A stretch of 64,000 bases of DNA, taken from NCBI GenBank assembly GCA_016184105.1, contig JACPDI010000065.1, positions 1 to 64,000 on the forward strand, read 5' to 3'. Position numbers and translations under genes: made by a program. Below the pieces are notes generated by a model. The model was not told the origin of the DNA. It did not search any database and saw only the letters and a list, made by a program, of their open reading frames with translations. Below, piece by piece: positions 13,813 through 19,602 of this stretch (within the stretch, counting starts at the first letter, position 1; every line of letters begins with the position of its first letter). This stretch comes from Acidobacteriota bacterium. GTDB taxonomy: Bacteria; Acidobacteriota; Vicinamibacteria; Vicinamibacterales; 2-12-FULL-66-21.

Positions 13813-16715
13813 TGGGCATGGCTTCTCCTTCCGGCCGGGCCGCCGCAGCGCTGGCGCTCGCCCTTGCGGCGGCCGGCGCCCTTCCGTCGGCCGCGGCGGC
13901 ACAGCAGCCGGCGCCCGCGCCCGCTGCGGCGCCGTTCGTCGGCCGGCCCGTCGCCTCGGTCGTGCTGCAGGTCGAAGGGCACCCGACGACCGATCCCGTG
14001 CTGATCGACCTCGTCTCGACGCCGGCCGGGCAGCCGCTCTCGATGGAAGCGGTTCGGGAAACCCTCGCGCACCTGTTCAACATCGGGCGGTTCCAGGGCA
14101 TCGACGTGGTGGCCCGCGATGCGCCGAATGGCGCCGTGGCGCTCGAGTACCTGTTGATGCCCCTTCACGCGGTGGCCTCGCTGGAATTTCGCGGCGACCT
14201 CGGCATCAGCGACGATGACCTGCGGCGCGCGGTTGTCGAACGGTTCGGGAAGGCGCCCCCCGCGGGGCGCGCCGACGCGGCGGCGCGGGTGTTGGAGCAA
14301 CTACTGGCCCGGCGCGGGTTCCTGCGCGCACGCGTCGAGCCGGCGATTCGCGTCAGGCACGACCCCGACCGCACGATCCTCGTCTTCAACGTGCAAGCTG
14401 GCGCCCGGGCGCGCATCGGCTCCGTGCAGATTGCGGGCGTCCGCGACACGGAGCGCGTGGCGGCGGCGCTCGACCTGCACGCCGGCGGTGCGTTCGAGCC
14501 CGATCGGCTGGACGAGCGGCTCTCGCGGTTCGTGCAGTCGCTGCGGAAGCGGGGCTACTACGAGTCGTCGGCCGGCCACCAGGCCACGCCCCGGGCGGGC
14601 GGCGAGATCGTGGACGTCGCCGTGGACGTACGACAGGGCCCCATCGTCAAGCTCGCGTTCGAGGGGGACCCGCTGCCGCGCAACCGCGTCGCCGAGCTGG
14701 TGCCGATCGAGCGCGAGGGATCGGTGGACGAGGACCTGCTCGAAGACGCCGACATCCGTATCAGGAACTTCCTGCTCGAGCAGGGCCATTGGAAAGCGCA
14801 CGTGACGCACCGTCGCGAGGTGGGAGACGACGTCGAGACGATCACGTTCACCGTGACGCGCGGCCGGCGGTTCGTCGTCAACTCGATTGAGATCTCGGGC
14901 AACCAGGCGTTTTCGACGGGCAGCCTCCGGCCGCTGGTGCCGCTGGGGCCGGGCGATCCCTTCGTGGAGGGGCGTCTCGGGACCGCGGTGGCGGCGATCA
15001 GGGCCCTGTATCTACACCAGGGGTTCACGACGCCCACCATTCACGTGGCGAACAGCGAGACGGCCGCCGGCGGCGTGGACATGCGTATCGCGATCCGCGA
15101 AGGGGTGCAGACCCGCGTGGGCGCGGTGTCTTTCGAGGGGAACGACGTTCTCGGCGACGACGAGCTGCGCCGGCTGACGCAGGTGGCGCCCGGGGCGGTG
15201 TTCTACGCGCCCGCGGTGGCGGCGGATCGCGACCGCATCCACCTCGAGTATCTCAATCGCGGCCACGCGGCTGCCTCCGTCACGGTGGAGCCCACGTTTG
15301 CCACCGACAGGTCGCGGGCCGACCTCGTGTATCGCATCACGGAAGGCCCGTGGTTCATCGTCGATCACGTGATCGTCGTCGGGAACACGAAGACGAGCGA
15401 AGAGACCATCCGCCGCGAGCTGCTGGTCGAAGCGGGCAAGCCGCTGGCGCTCGCGGATGTCATGGAGAGCCAGCGCCGGCTGAGCGCCCTTGGGTTGTTC
15501 CGGCGCGTGCGGATTACGGAGGTGCCGCACGGAGACGAGCCGCGGCGGGACATCGTCGTGACCGTCGAAGAGGCGGACCGGACCACGGTGGCCTACGGCG
15601 GCGGCCTGGAGCTGGCGCAGCGGACCGTCCTCGGGACGGGCGGGATCGCGGACGAACGCCTCGAGGTCGCGCCCCGCGGCTCGTTCGAGATCGGGCGGCG
15701 CAACCTGTGGGGGCGCAACCGGTCGGTCAACTTCTTCACGCGCGTGAGCTTCCGCCCCCGCGGCGAGTCGATCGAGTCTCCGGAGTCCGCCAATTACGGG
15801 TTCAACGAGTACCGCGTGGTCGGCACGTACCGCGAGGTCGGCGCGTTCGGCCGCCTGGCCGACGTGGCGGTGAACGCCTTCGTCGAGCAGGCGATCCGGA
15901 GCAGCTTCAACTTCAGCCGCCGCGGCGTGAACGCGGAGGCGCAGCGCCGCCTGACGCCGTACGTGCGCGTCACGGGCCGATATGGTTTCGGCCGGACGCG
16001 GTTGTTCGACGAACGCATCGCGACAGACGAGAAGCTCAACATCGACCGCGTGTTTCCGCGCGTGCGCCTGTCGAGCGTCTCGTTCTCGGCCTATCGCGAC
16101 ACCCGCGACCATCCGCTGGATCCCACCCGCGGCTGGCTGCTTGGATCGGACAGCGAGCTTGCCGCGCGCAGCATCGGATCGCAGGTGGGCTTCGCGAAAA
16201 CGTACGTGCAGGCGCTCGGGTTCCGCACGCTGTCGCGCGAACGAAACGTCGTCCTGGCGGCGGCGCTGCGCGTCGGGCTGGCACGCGGCTTCGCGCAGGA
16301 CGTGAACGGGCAGATCGTGGTGGACGACCTGCCGGCGAGCGAGCGGTTTTTCGCCGGGGGCAGCACCACGGTGCGCGGGTTCGCGCTCGACAAGCTCGGC
16401 GCCCCCGACACGATTGCCGCGTCCGGCTTCGCGATCGGCGGAAACGCCCTGCTCGTCATGAACGCGGAGATCCGCACGCCGCTCTGGCGCGACGTCGGGG
16501 TTGTCGCTTTCCTCGACGCGGGCAACGTGTTCGCGCGTATCGGCAATGTCGACGTCAGCGAGCTGCGCGCCAGCCCCGGCTTCGGCCTGCGGTACCGCTC
16601 GCCGATCGGGCCGATCCGCGTCGACCTGGGTTTCAAACTGCGGCGTCGCGAGCTGTCGCCAGGGAACTTCGAAGGGCTGACGGCGTTTCATATTTCGGTG
16701 GGGCATGCCTTCTGA
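13812..16715 (+). CDS. Omp85 outer-membrane assembly protein (TamA/BamA family) with about seven POTRA domains
   Basis: A 967-residue protein with a signal peptide (about 1-30), seven successive POTRA-like units (about 47-116, 117-198, 199-280, 281-356, 357-436, 437-517 and 518-595) and a C-terminal beta-barrel (about 600-967). Typical unit starts are VGAVSFEGNDVLGDDELRR and IVVGNTKTSEETIRRELL. The barrel carries the Omp85 loop-6 motif in FFAGGSTTVRGFALDKLG and ends in aromatic Phe. ATG 13812 overlaps the tamB stop; a second ATG lies two codons later. With tamB directly upstream it is best read as the TamA-side partner, although seven POTRA units exceed the three of TamA and five of E. coli BamA. 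Confidence 0.9.
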   Translation: MGMASPSGRAAAALALALAAAGALPSAAAAQQPAPAPAAAPFVGRPVASVVLQVEGHPTTDPVLIDLVSTPAGQPLSMEAVRETLAHLFNIGRFQGIDVVARDAPNGAVALEYLLMPLHAVASLEFRGDLGISDDDLRRAVVERFGKAPPAGRADAAARVLEQLLARRGFLRARVEPAIRVRHDPDRTILVFNVQAGARARIGSVQIAGVRDTERVAAALDLHAGGAFEPDRLDERLSRFVQSLRKRGYYESSAGHQATPRAGGEIVDVAVDVRQGPIVKLAFEGDPLPRNRVAELVPIEREGSVDEDLLEDADIRIRNFLLEQGHWKAHVTHRREVGDDVETITFTVTRGRRFVVNSIEISGNQAFSTGSLRPLVPLGPGDPFVEGRLGTAVAAIRALYLHQGFTTPTIHVANSETAAGGVDMRIAIREGVQTRVGAVSFEGNDVLGDDELRRLTQVAPGAVFYAPAVAADRDRIHLEYLNRGHAAASVTVEPTFATDRSRADLVYRITEGPWFIVDHVIVVGNTKTSEETIRRELLVEAGKPLALADVMESQRRLSALGLFRRVRITEVPHGDEPRRDIVVTVEEADRTTVAYGGGLELAQRTVLGTGGIADERLEVAPRGSFEIGRRNLWGRNRSVNFFTRVSFRPRGESIESPESANYGFNEYRVVGTYREVGAFGRLADVAVNAFVEQAIRSSFNFSRRGVNAEAQRRLTPYVRVTGRYGFGRTRLFDERIATDEKLNIDRVFPRVRLSSVSFSAYRDTRDHPLDPTRGWLLGSDSELAARSIGSQVGFAKTYVQALGFRTLSRERNVVLAAALRVGLARGFAQDVNGQIVVDDLPASERFFAGGSTTVRGFALDKLGAPDTIAASGFAIGGNALLVMNAEIRTPLWRDVGVVAFLDAGNVFARIGNVDVSELRASPGFGLRYRSPIGPIRVDLGFKLRRRELSPGNFEGLTAFHISVGHAF

Positions 16716-17403
16716 CCGGCGCCACGCGCCGTGGCGCGAGCCTTTCAGGCTCGCGCGGCGGACCCGCAAGGTCCATCCCACACGTGGTCCGGCCGCCGCA
16801 GCGTTCGTGTTGTTCCTGTTGTCCGGAACCGCCGCGGCCGCGCCGGTCATCGATCGCGTGCTGGCCGTGGTTCAAGGCTCGATCGTGACGCTGTCGGACG
16901 TGCAGACGGCGATGGCGCTCGGGCTGGTGAACACCGCGGGGGCCGACGATCCCGTCGGGTCGGCGCTCGAACAGCTCGTCGAGCGATCGCTGCAGCTCAT
17001 CGAGGTCGAGCGGTATTCGCCTCCCGAGCCGACCGCCGCTGAAGTGCAGGCGCGGCTGCGGCCCATCCGGGCGCGCTTCCCGGACGAGGAGTCGTTCCGC
17101 CGCACCGCGGCCGCCCTGGGCCTGACCGACAAGCGGTTGCAGGCGATCGCCCGCGACGACCTCCGCCTCCGGACCCACCTCACGCAGCGGTTCGCGTCGG
17201 TGACCGATCCGGCAGACGAGGAGATCGCGCGCTACTATCGCGAGCACCAGCAGGAGTTCGTGCGCGACGGCGTGCCGTTGACGCTGGGGGAAGTCGTTCC
17301 GGAAGTGCGTCGGCGCCTGGTGGCCGCACGCCGCGCCGAGCTGGTGGACGAGTGGTCGCGGCAGTTGAGACAGCGGGCGGATGTGCTGGTCATTCCTCGC
17401 TAG
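16705..17403 (+). CDS. SurA-like periplasmic chaperone lacking a recognisable PPIase domain
   Basis: The ATG overlaps the Omp85 gene by 11 bases. The 232-residue product has a basic N-terminal extension, a hydrophobic signal core (AAAAFVLFLLSGTAAAA) and a SurA N-domain-like helical fold beginning VIDRVLAVVQGSIVTLSDVQ. It continues with charged helices and a late pairing helix (EVVPEVRRRLVAARRAELVDEWSRQL). The rotamase domain of SurA/PrsA proteins is absent. It probably escorts unfolded outer-membrane proteins to the Omp85 machine encoded next door. About 20 of the N-terminal residues (HAPWREPFRLARRTRKVHP) come from a palindromic repeat inserted in the gene start. Confidence 0.8.
   Translation: MPSDRRHAPWREPFRLARRTRKVHPTRGPAAAAFVLFLLSGTAAAAPVIDRVLAVVQGSIVTLSDVQTAMALGLVNTAGADDPVGSALEQLVERSLQLIEVERYSPPEPTAAEVQARLRPIRARFPDEESFRRTAAALGLTDKRLQAIARDDLRLRTHLTQRFASVTDPADEEIARYYREHQQEFVRDGVPLTLGEVVPEVRRRLVAARRAELVDEWSRQLRQRADVLVIPR
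16731..16781 (+). repeat. Palindromic element, family A, copy 1 (inside SurA-like gene)
   Basis: Two successive hairpins: GCGCGAGCC/GGCTCGCGC around TTTCA, then GGACC/GGTCC around CGCAA, ending TCCCAC. The 51-bp unit matches 55541-55591 at about 46 of 52 aligned positions. It is translated as part of the N-terminus of the SurA-like protein. Confidence 0.85.
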
Positions 17404-17487
17404 GCACGCGCCACGCGCCACGTGCCACGTGCGACGTGCCACGTGCGACGTGCGACGTGCCACGTGCGACGTGCCACGTGCCACGTG
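17404..17487 (+). repeat. Array of twelve 7-bp repeats (forward orientation)
   Basis: Twelve tandem heptamers, mostly CCACGTG and CGACGTG, with two or three CACGCG variants at the left end. It starts immediately after the SurA-like gene's stop. Together with the reverse-oriented array at 17948 it brackets the four-helix-bundle gene as an imperfect inverted repeat. Confidence 0.9.
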
Positions 17488-17502
17488 CGCGAGGTTCCGT
17501 CG

Positions 17503-17919
17503 TCAGGAGTGTCGCCTGGAGATCGCGTGCGAACGCGAGCCCTTTGTCTGGCTACGGTGGTCGGGGCTGAGGTGGCCGAGGAGTTTCAAGCCACAGGCGC
17601 GGGCGTGCTCCGCCAGTTCGCACAACTCCGCGTACTCCGCTTCCGACACGTACTTTGCGGCCAGCGCCTCATCGAGATGGTCTTCCGTCTCGCGTAACGA
17701 TCCGAGCGCGATGTCGACGTACTGCGCGAACTGCGCGTGTCCATAGCGGCCGAAACCCTCCGCAATGCGCCGGCAGACCTGGGCGATTGTCTTTCGCGCG
17801 CTTGTGCAGAAATTGCCATTGCGGGCGACATCTCCACGCTCGGTAATTGCATAGATGCGCCCGCGCAGTTCGTGAGCAAGCTGCCAGAACCGGAGTTCTC
17901 TGTGCGTTTTCGCTCCCAT
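17503..17919 (-). CDS. Four-helix-bundle protein (S23 / 23S rRNA intervening-sequence protein family)
   Basis: A 138-residue, almost fully helical protein. Diagnostic positions are RELRFWQLAHELRGRIYAIT near the start, TSARKTIAQVCRRIAEGFGRYG (family signature of the R-A..SI..NIAEGxGR type) and YVDIALGSLRETEDHLDEAL. Relatives occur inside 23S rRNA intervening sequences, as stand-alone genes, and as the Avd accessory protein of diversity-generating retroelements; their function is poorly known. ATG 17919 was chosen because longer starts would translate the adjacent heptamer repeat. No Shine-Dalgarno is visible. Heptamer arrays lie on both sides in opposite orientation; no reverse transcriptase or rRNA is nearby. 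Confidence 0.8.
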   Translation of the reverse strand: MGAKTHRELRFWQLAHELRGRIYAITERGDVARNGNFCTSARKTIAQVCRRIAEGFGRYGHAQFAQYVDIALGSLRETEDHLDEALAAKYVSEAEYAELCELAEHARACGLKLLGHLSPDHRSQTKGSRSHAISRRHS

Positions 17920-17947
17920 GGTCGAGTGCCGCAGCACAGTCCATGCC

Positions 17948-17982
17948 GCACGTCGCACGTGGCACGTCGCACGTGGCACGTG
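17948..17982 (-). repeat. Array of five 7-bp repeats (reverse orientation)
   Basis: Five tandem units GCACGTC or GCACGTG, the reverse complement of the 17404 array, just upstream of the four-helix-bundle gene. A degenerate sixth unit (GCAGGCG) follows. Confidence 0.85.
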
Positions 17983-18006
17983 GCAGGCGGGTGTCTCACG
18001 TGGCCC

Positions 18007-18702
18007 TCACCCTCCCCCCACCGCATTCCGCACGATCTCGCTGACATTAAATCCCGCATGCGCGATGGCGGGAGAAACGATGCTGCGCCGCGTGATGTAG
18101 ATCGCGCCCCAGAAGGCGCCGAGCACGGCGGTGGCCACCGCGACGTCGCGACCCTGCTGCAGGTGGCCGAGCCCGAAGACGACGCTGAAGAGCCCGAGGC
18201 CGAGCCACGCGCCGCCGAGCGACTGCTGGAAGCGATGCAGGATGAAGGCGCGCTGAACCTCCTCGCGCAGCCCGCCCGCGATCATCACGACCACGGCGAG
18301 CACCGCGCGCTGGCCGGGCGTGCGCATCAGGTCCTCGAACGGATTCACGGCGACGTTATGCAGGGACGGCAGCGCCGTGCGGATCGTGACGATCACGGCG
18401 GCTGCGAGCAGAAAAGACGCCGGCACGAGCAGGATGCCGCGTCCCGCCTCGGGCAACACGGGTCGGGCACCGATGAAGACGTCAGGCGGCCGCTCGCCTC
18501 GTCTCGTCAGGAAGTAGATGACCAGCCCGACGAGCAGCGCCGCGTCGGCGAGCGACAGCAGCGCCACGAAGGCCAGCGACAAACCCCCGCCATCGGCCGC
18601 TCGCGGTCCCAGGCCCGCCGACCAGAGCACCGCCAGGACGAGGAACTGAGTCGGATAGCCGGAGCAGATCAGAACTTCCAGGAGGGCTCTCGCGCGGGAC
18701 AC
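18007..18702 (-). CDS. CPBP-family intramembrane glutamic endopeptidase
   Basis: A 231-residue membrane protein of the CAAX-protease/bacteriocin-processing (Abi) family. The catalytic motifs are GLREEVQRAF (EExxxR), FGLGHLQQG (conserved His) and the late HAGFNV. About six to seven hydrophobic helices are visible, including LAFVALLSLADAALLVGLVIYF and AVLAVVVMIAGG. Members cleave prenylated or other membrane substrates or act in immunity to self-made peptides; the substrate here is unknown. The GTG start at 18702 follows a TGGTAGCCT stretch six bases upstream on the minus strand, a weak leaderless-type promoter. Both neighbouring spacers carry heptamer arrays. Confidence 0.85.
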   Translation of the reverse strand: MSRARALLEVLICSGYPTQFLVLAVLWSAGLGPRAADGGGLSLAFVALLSLADAALLVGLVIYFLTRRGERPPDVFIGARPVLPEAGRGILLVPASFLLAAAVIVTIRTALPSLHNVAVNPFEDLMRTPGQRAVLAVVVMIAGGLREEVQRAFILHRFQQSLGGAWLGLGLFSVVFGLGHLQQGRDVAVATAVLGAFWGAIYITRRSIVSPAIAHAGFNVSEIVRNAVGGG

Positions 18703-18727
18703 GGGGGGAGGCTACCACCGCCAGGCG

Positions 18728-18833
18728 CCACGCGCCACGTGCGACGTGCCACGTGCGACGTGCCACGTGCCACGTGCGATGGGCGTCGGGGCACGTGGCA
18801 CGTCGCACGTGGCACGTCGCACGTGGCACGTGG
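18728..18833. repeat. Long palindrome of 7-bp repeats (seven forward, six reverse)
   Basis: Seven CCACGTG-type units at 18728-18776 face six CACGTGG-type units at 18792-18833 across a 15-base centre. The arms are near-perfect reverse complements in the same unit order. The array ends one base before the stop codon of the lipoprotein gene. Confidence 0.92.
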
Positions 18834-18834
18834 T

Positions 18835-19602
18835 CTACCGCGCCGTCGGCACGCGAATCGTGATGGGCGCGGTCAACCGCACGTTGAGGCTGGTGCCGGC
18901 CGGCACGCGCACCTCTTTGCCGCGCGTCGCGAGCACGACGCCCGTGCCGCCGGCGCCGCCGATCGCGGCCCCCTTGGCCGCGCCGTCGCCGCCGCCCGCG
19001 ATGCCGCCGATCACCGCGCCGGCGCCCGCGCCGACCGCGATCTTGGCCGCGTCCTGTTTCTTCGTGGCCGGGGCCCTGCGGGCGATGACGCCGGTGCGGA
19101 CGTCATGCCGCTCATCGCGCGCCTCGAGCGAGTTGAACCGGAACGCCACGCGCGCGCGCCCTTTCACGCGCCCCGATCGCGTCGCATCCGTCACGACACC
19201 CGACAGCCCGCTCCCAGCCGGGATCGCCTCGACGCCGTCCACGACCACGGCACGGCGCACGGTCGCACGCACCGGGTCTTCGATGTCGCTCGCATCGGAC
19301 GCCACGGTCGTCTGCAGTTCGACCGGAAGCACGGTGCCCGCCGGCAGCGTCAGCTCGCGATATTCCGGCTCTTTCGAAAACAGGCGGGAGATCGGGTTGC
19401 CTTCCGCGGGCTTCTTGTCAGTTCTGTCAGCCGAAGCGGCAGGATCGTGATCCGGGGCCACGGCGGGGCTGTCGGCCGGGCTCGCCGCCTGCGCGGTTTT
19501 ATCCGGATTTTCCACGGGCCGTGTGGTATCGGCGCGCGTATCGCACGCCGCCACGAGCGGCAGCGCCGCCATGGCGCCAATTGCACACAGTTTCGTCAGC
19601 AT
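18835..19602 (-). CDS. Lipoprotein with glycine-rich (glycine-zipper-like) segment
   Basis: ATG 19602 has GGAGG upstream and opens a lipoprotein signal (MLTKLCAIGAMAALPLVAAC). The 255-residue product has an acidic, alanine-rich linker, a beta region beginning LTLPAGTVLPVELQTTVASD (about residues 85-160), a glycine-zipper-like stretch IAVGAGAGAVIGGIAGGGDGAAKGAAIGGAGG (about 190-225), and a closing beta pair VPAGTSLNVRLTAPITIRV. Such proteins are envelope-anchored; function is unknown. The gene ends against a large palindromic heptamer array and is divergent from the response regulator. Confidence 0.72.
   Translation of the reverse strand: MLTKLCAIGAMAALPLVAACDTRADTTRPVENPDKTAQAASPADSPAVAPDHDPAASADRTDKKPAEGNPISRLFSKEPEYRELTLPAGTVLPVELQTTVASDASDIEDPVRATVRRAVVVDGVEAIPAGSGLSGVVTDATRSGRVKGRARVAFRFNSLEARDERHDVRTGVIARRAPATKKQDAAKIAVGAGAGAVIGGIAGGGDGAAKGAAIGGAGGTGVVLATRGKEVRVPAGTSLNVRLTAPITIRVPTAR

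Follow-up and report, generated by a model that had tools for sequence, protein, structure and literature searches.

The S23 locus and its source genome

The window, the 64,000-nucleotide stretch of DNA analysed here, carries on its minus strand a 138-aa gene of the S23 (23S_rRNA_IVP) four-helix-bundle family (17503–17919) between two inverted arrays of heptamers. In the sense of the S23 gene, the 5′ arm (17948–17985, minus strand) contains five heptamers, and the inverted 3′ arm (17404–17488, plus strand) contains twelve, ten of which read CCACGTG or CGACGTG while two at the outer end are degenerate ACGCG units. An S23-less inverted pair of the same heptamer, with 7+6 units around a short spacer, lies at 18728–18833; its layout is that of the dispersed pairs in other genomes, and we refer to it as a satellite copy. 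TRF independently recovers all three arrays (scores 126, 57–69 and 93), and both it and the sequence agree with the initial annotation, which had described twelve forward and five reverse heptamers around an S23 gene with a palindrome beyond. In the predicted fold of the transcript, the arms pair with each other in a single long stem whose loop contains the S23 gene. An upstream host gene with a weak match to NifM-type peptidyl-prolyl isomerases (16705–17403, plus strand) lies outside the element; its TAG stop codon occupies 17401–17403 and the first array starts at the very next base. The other neighbour, a gene for a CPBP-type intramembrane protease (PF02517; 18007–18702, minus strand), separates the S23 element from the satellite pair. 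Rfam found no rRNA within 16500–19500, the element being flanked by protein genes, and comparison of the 18728–18833 palindrome with known RNA families gave only sub-threshold, miRNA-like matches. A fixed order of the CC and CG unit variants, considered as a property of all arms, is present in the window arms and absent from the genome's other arrays, and was discarded.

Assignment of the gene to the S23 family, also made in the initial annotation, is borne out by profile matches to PF05635 (1e-18, 67.9 bits against a cut-off of 33.8) and TIGR02436 (4e-14, 52.7 bits against 24). The AlphaFold2 model has four helices (pLDDT 89.8), and its top Foldseek match is XCC0516 of Xanthomonas (2gsc, TMt 0.91–0.93); Foldseek also groups it with BT_0352 (2rld) and with Avd of diversity-generating retroelements (4dwl, TMt 0.85). 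The likeness of PF05635 to Avd has been published (PMC10053308), and an X. arboricola S23 protein matches a phage Avd profile (PHROG) at 1e-6. A Pfam search of the window gene returned PF05635 alone, with no transposase between the arms; no other gene fits there, hence no reverse transcriptase with TR/VR. S23 has no recognisable catalytic domain or known nuclease fold. Structures of S23/IVP proteins have been solved since 2006, and we know of no function established for them.

The source genome (4.24 Mb in 69 contigs) contains three PF05635 genes, each adjoining an array with a different unit, and all three units are also dispersed elsewhere in the genome. A scan with SACGTGSSACGTGS, the CACGTG pattern, gave 152 matches against 1 for the reversed pattern, so that dispersal of the window heptamer is not due to chance. 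A GGTTC-spaced pattern gave 155 matches (reversed control, 0) that form two families, one of 9/10-mers and one of 14-mers. On contig C46, the S23 gene has the 10-mer GGTTCGAGNN on one side and an inverted remnant on the other. On C29 (L009, 1191–3096), a 17-copy array of the 14-mer GGTTCTRCACGAGA lies upstream of the S23 gene; downstream come a gene for an IS256-like transposase and then an inverted 14-mer array, which this insertion appears to have separated from the S23 gene. Self-copying of the S23 gene within genomes was considered and rejected, for alignable paralogues are mostly 30–45% identical; the gene thus rarely copies, though its arms are many, and the arrays, rather than the gene, look like the part that spreads. 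Two further loci of this genome deserve mention. On C12 (118300–119800; L393), inverted 14-mer arrays about 530 bp apart enclose a small non-S23 ORF, possibly another cargo of these arms, and on C4 (L001, about 1310–1440) an inverted CACGTG pair occupies a short intergenic gap upstream of the apparent rplI start.

Arrays at S23 genes and across genomes

A search for the same gene-plus-array elsewhere, as the initial annotation had proposed, turned it up at S23 genes from many phyla. The survey covered 215 S23/PF05635 loci. PF05635 is present in 42 of 60 Acidobacteriota relatives, and in the 30 best relatives' loci short tandem arrays stand beside S23 in nearly every one. Of 40 further loci from one Acidobacteriota order, 22 have an array within 300 bp on the left, 22 have one on the right and 16 have both, compared with 6%, 6% and 0.4% for control positions in the same stretches. 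A mixed-phyla set of 89 loci (80 from named genomes and 9 from cyanobacterial plasmids) gave 58, 63 and 45, against 8%, 8% and 1% for controls in the same loci. Arrays of the same period on both sides occur in 76 of the 215 loci, 61 of them inverted, 6 direct and 9 unmatched; 122 of the 215 have no detectable arrays on both sides at the thresholds used, in some cases owing to a contig end or decayed arms. Among heptamer pairs outside the xanthomonads, 44 of 54 match when inverted, whereas shuffling the right arms among loci yielded a mean of 2.6 and a maximum of 8 (500 shuffles). The loci display 50 distinct heptamers, with four the commonest copy number and 22–32 units in the longest arrays; G-rich 5′ arms occur at 50 of 62 loci. 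A special role for the self-complementary CACGTG, to which the initial annotation had drawn attention, is rejected, as the units are arbitrary and each S23 gene has its own.

Several loci have individual features. Direct-orientation arrays include L172 (Faecalibacter), L131, L137 and L148, among others, and several of them are in Bacteroidetes. In xanthomonads (L121–L124, left arm), the array encodes the first S23 codons (MENRES or VENRES), with the start codon inside the array. On a plasmid of Nostoc edaphicum (pNe_5; L114, 3001–3369), two ribonucleotide reductase genes flank an S23 element whose inverted arms read AGTAGGG/TCCCTAC. On a Pseudanabaena galeata plasmid (L117, 2998–3357), S23 with 7-mer arrays on both sides is inserted between the cas6 and cas4 genes of a type I-D CRISPR operon, which fits the published occurrence of S23-type genes in CRISPR loci (PMC3936711). 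One locus (L011), where the upstream gene ends in AAGGTTCGATAG and GGTTCGAG units follow, raised the idea that the unit is copied from the target site; this was abandoned, the unit being dispersed genome-wide and the xanthomonad empty site containing no seed.

The arms of the XCC0516 orthologue are GGGAATC, the published Xanthomonas heptamer (PMC4692102). We compared 198 Xanthomonadaceae genomes, 84 with and 114 without S23, scoring a unit as present from at least three dimers and counting GGGAATC and GGGACTC by exact match, since allowing one mismatch mixes the two. GGGAATC (at least three matches) is present in 43 of 84 S23-positive and 11 of 114 S23-negative genomes (p=8e-11), and GGGACTC in 26 S23-positive and 3 S23-negative genomes (p=2e-8), both by Fisher tests, in which related genomes count as independent. 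Of the 11 genomes whose sampled S23 locus has GGGAATC, 10 have this unit dispersed and none has GGGACTC; of the 5 with GGGACTC there, all have that unit dispersed and 1 has GGGAATC. Among the 60 Acidobacteriota relatives, CGGGAGT, found at S23 of G027 and G037, has dispersed counts of 379 and 120, respectively, with 142 in G014 of the same genus and 0–19 in the other 57. Within a genome, the unit next to S23 thus predicts the dispersed unit. Counter-cases are the 11 S23-negative Xanthomonadaceae with at least three GGGAATC dimers, one of which (G173) has 82, and G014, none of whose 142 CGGGAGT matches falls at its six examined S23 loci; they could reflect loss of S23, assembly gaps or unexamined copies, or else independence from S23. 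The initial annotation had named arrays without an S23 link as evidence against its reading. Most arrays are indeed not adjacent to S23, but their unit matches the S23 unit of the genome.

Dispersed copies, mostly without an adjacent S23 gene, are sited at tens of places per genome. Convergent pairs make up 31 of the 40 array loci sampled in Luteimonas and Pseudoxanthomonas; the first 20 loci had been picked partly for a paired look, and of the second 20, 17 are paired. Spacers are mostly 15–107 bp. Exactly four units occur in 50 of 74 satellite arms and in 84 of 99 arms at S23 loci, and an AAAGC-like inner motif lies within 12 bases past the array in 33 of 74 and 37 of 99, respectively, compared with 2 satellite and 2 S23 arms in the next 12 bases, taken as a control. 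The outer end is often GCC in satellite arms, as in S23 arms. When satellites within one genome were compared, no common spacer sequence was found, which is not expected from plain copy-and-paste of a whole hairpin. The satellites examined lie mostly between genes or at gene edges; one pair is in frame within the dnaE linker, where most relatives have a short linker. On contig C60 of a Luteimonas genome (L230), a tRNA gene is flanked on each side by a satellite pair.

Insertion sites and sister genomes

The accB–accC interval holds an S23 element in at least 41 sampled loci. In many relatives it is empty, consisting of a stop codon, about 10 bp and a start codon, and in G165 it holds a derivative with an internal deletion, in which both ends of the S23 gene survive between GTGATTC arms. 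Empty sites, the in-frame dnaE insertion and the deletion derivative show a real insertable element, the two arms entering together with the gene as a unit. In the accB–accC and dnaE comparisons, where the insertions are old, no target-site duplication was seen. The master S23 element is retained vertically. The small mobile or recombining unit of the initial annotation therefore stands as an insertable unit, which recurs in many phyla and has empty and filled sites, though the S23 gene does not seem to copy itself within a genome, given the low identity of the paralogues.

A group of genomes with 98–100% identical accC allows a closer comparison. S23-bearing accB–accC sites in this group have GGGAATC arms (G221, G126) or GGGATTC arms (G202, G179, G074), and S23-less pairs at the same interval have GGGACTC arms in G253 and GGGACCC arms in G153. 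The S23-less pairs have a right outer flank in common that is absent from the S23-bearing copies, and so may represent a separate insertion. The sister species G253 and G153 carry their resident S23 genes at orthologous positions (88.6% identity across 3.3 kb), where the arms are four GGGACTC units in G253 and four GGGACCC units in G153. The arms at S23 and those of the orthologous S23-less pairs thus differ alike between the two genomes, so that the same base of the unit has changed in parallel in master and satellite. This sister-genome comparison partly corrects for phylogeny in the unit-matching tests.

A probable two-part repeat system and its alternatives

On balance, we hold it probable that the block in the window represents one copy of a repeat system in two parts, an S23 master and its satellites, in which S23 promotes the spread and homogenisation of the arms. 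The master would be an S23 gene between two inverted arms of tandem short units, each arm typically of four heptads (about 28 bp) and longer in the source genome. Satellites would be inverted pairs of the master's arms around a short unrelated spacer, at tens of dispersed sites. As to how the arrays move and what S23 does to them, we infer that S23, as an Avd-like ring of four-helix bundles, may bind arms of its own unit when these are folded into a hairpin in single-stranded DNA or RNA, and may thereby promote their spread and homogenisation. Because S23 has no known nuclease fold, the DNA chemistry is proposed to come from host or reverse-transcriptase enzymes.

The best analogy is REPIN/RAYT (PMC3116915). 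There, too, one vertically kept master gene is framed by a repeat dispersed in the genome, the satellites are short inverted pairs between genes, and each master has its own sequence family. From the unit matching, S23 satellites may be spread in trans. The S23 system would work like REPIN/RAYT without being a member of it: it has no Y1/HUH transposase, its protein is a four-helix bundle, its arms are tandem heptads rather than a REP palindrome, and its satellite spacers are unrelated.

The most serious alternative, which we nevertheless think unlikely, treats S23 as cargo: the arrays would be mobile or spread by the host, and S23 often carried or tolerated between them, much as in rRNA intervening sequences (IVS) whose stem is excised by RNase III. 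Satellites do spread without S23, the inverted pair on C12 of the source genome encloses an unrelated ORF, and the S23 protein of the Coxiella IVS is reported to be poorly expressed, its ORF decaying (PMC4990558). Yet the association is with a single protein family, in many phyla and with 50 different units, and S23 is kept at accB–accC in at least 41 sampled loci; prediction of the dispersed unit by the unit at S23 and the parallel change in master and satellite also speak against it. A second alternative, which we judge quite improbable, is that the arms serve S23 and its neighbouring genes in regulation or RNA processing (as Shine-Dalgarno sequence, hairpin or terminator), with S23 a post-transcriptional regulator of a dispersed regulon that it reaches through hairpins. 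The G-rich 5′ arms, their overlap with the S23 start region in xanthomonads and the siting of examined satellites would suit such a device, but the insertion into dnaE coding sequence and the occupied and empty sites indicate a spreading element; a regulatory role is compatible with the two-part system as a later use. Local replication slippage, with the arrays as ordinary short tandem repeats and S23 adjacency incidental, is scarcely credible: array copy numbers vary, very long arrays of 22–32 units occur and polymerase slippage has been discussed as a source of bacterial heptamer repeats (PMC4679880), but slippage cannot produce a matching inverted arm hundreds of bases off, nor does it account for the fixed four-unit length (84 of 99), the common flanking motifs or the entry of the two arms together into an empty site.

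More tentatively, the two-part reading might extend further, with S23 proteins as trans-acting factors of bacteria-wide selfish or domesticated repeats that have no transposase of their own. The short tandem repeats known as STRRs and the Xanthomonas GGGAATC arrays would then be satellites, 23S rRNA IVS would be copies that landed in rRNA, and the S23 ring would read the 7-base register of its own arms; we think this possible rather than probable. We know of no accepted origin for bacterial heptamer arrays. The full-text literature outside subscription papers and most preprints yielded nothing linking S23 genes to inverted arrays. In Coxiella burnetii, GACAGAT heptamers lie upstream of the S23 ORF of the IVS, whose terminal stem is 28 bp long (PMC4990558), that is, 4 × 7; like the window element, this IVS places an S23 ORF between complementary stem-forming ends, but the window element lies between protein genes and has dispersed S23-less satellites. 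Heptanucleotide STRRs of cyanobacteria and Xanthomonas (GGGAATC, GGGGA(T/C)T) are likewise intergenic, dispersed tandem heptamers, and the Xanthomonas unit is identical. The report on them describes about 70 inverted pairs per genome, treats the arrays as simple repeats that are prone to form quadruplexes and 'generally' have no association with mobile elements, and in the passages covered here draws no link to S23 (PMC4692102). S23-type genes have also been reported in CPR rRNA insertions (PMC11270868).

The one-to-one match between S23 gene and dispersed array gives a testable explanation for both, links both to Avd of diversity-generating retroelements and explains how S23 genes come to lie within rRNA genes, CRISPR loci and operons. 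Bacterial repeats of a puzzling kind may thus belong to an apparently undescribed protein-plus-repeat system, which would add a repeat system with a non-transposase master protein. S23 has its fold in common with Avd, but diversity-generating retroelements differ in that no reverse transcriptase lies within the S23 arms and the arms are unlike TR/VR; classical insertion sequences differ in having a transposase, which the window element lacks between its arms. The Foldback (FB) transposons of eukaryotes, whose coding content is different, provide an analogy only, in that their long inverted ends consist of short subrepeats in tandem.
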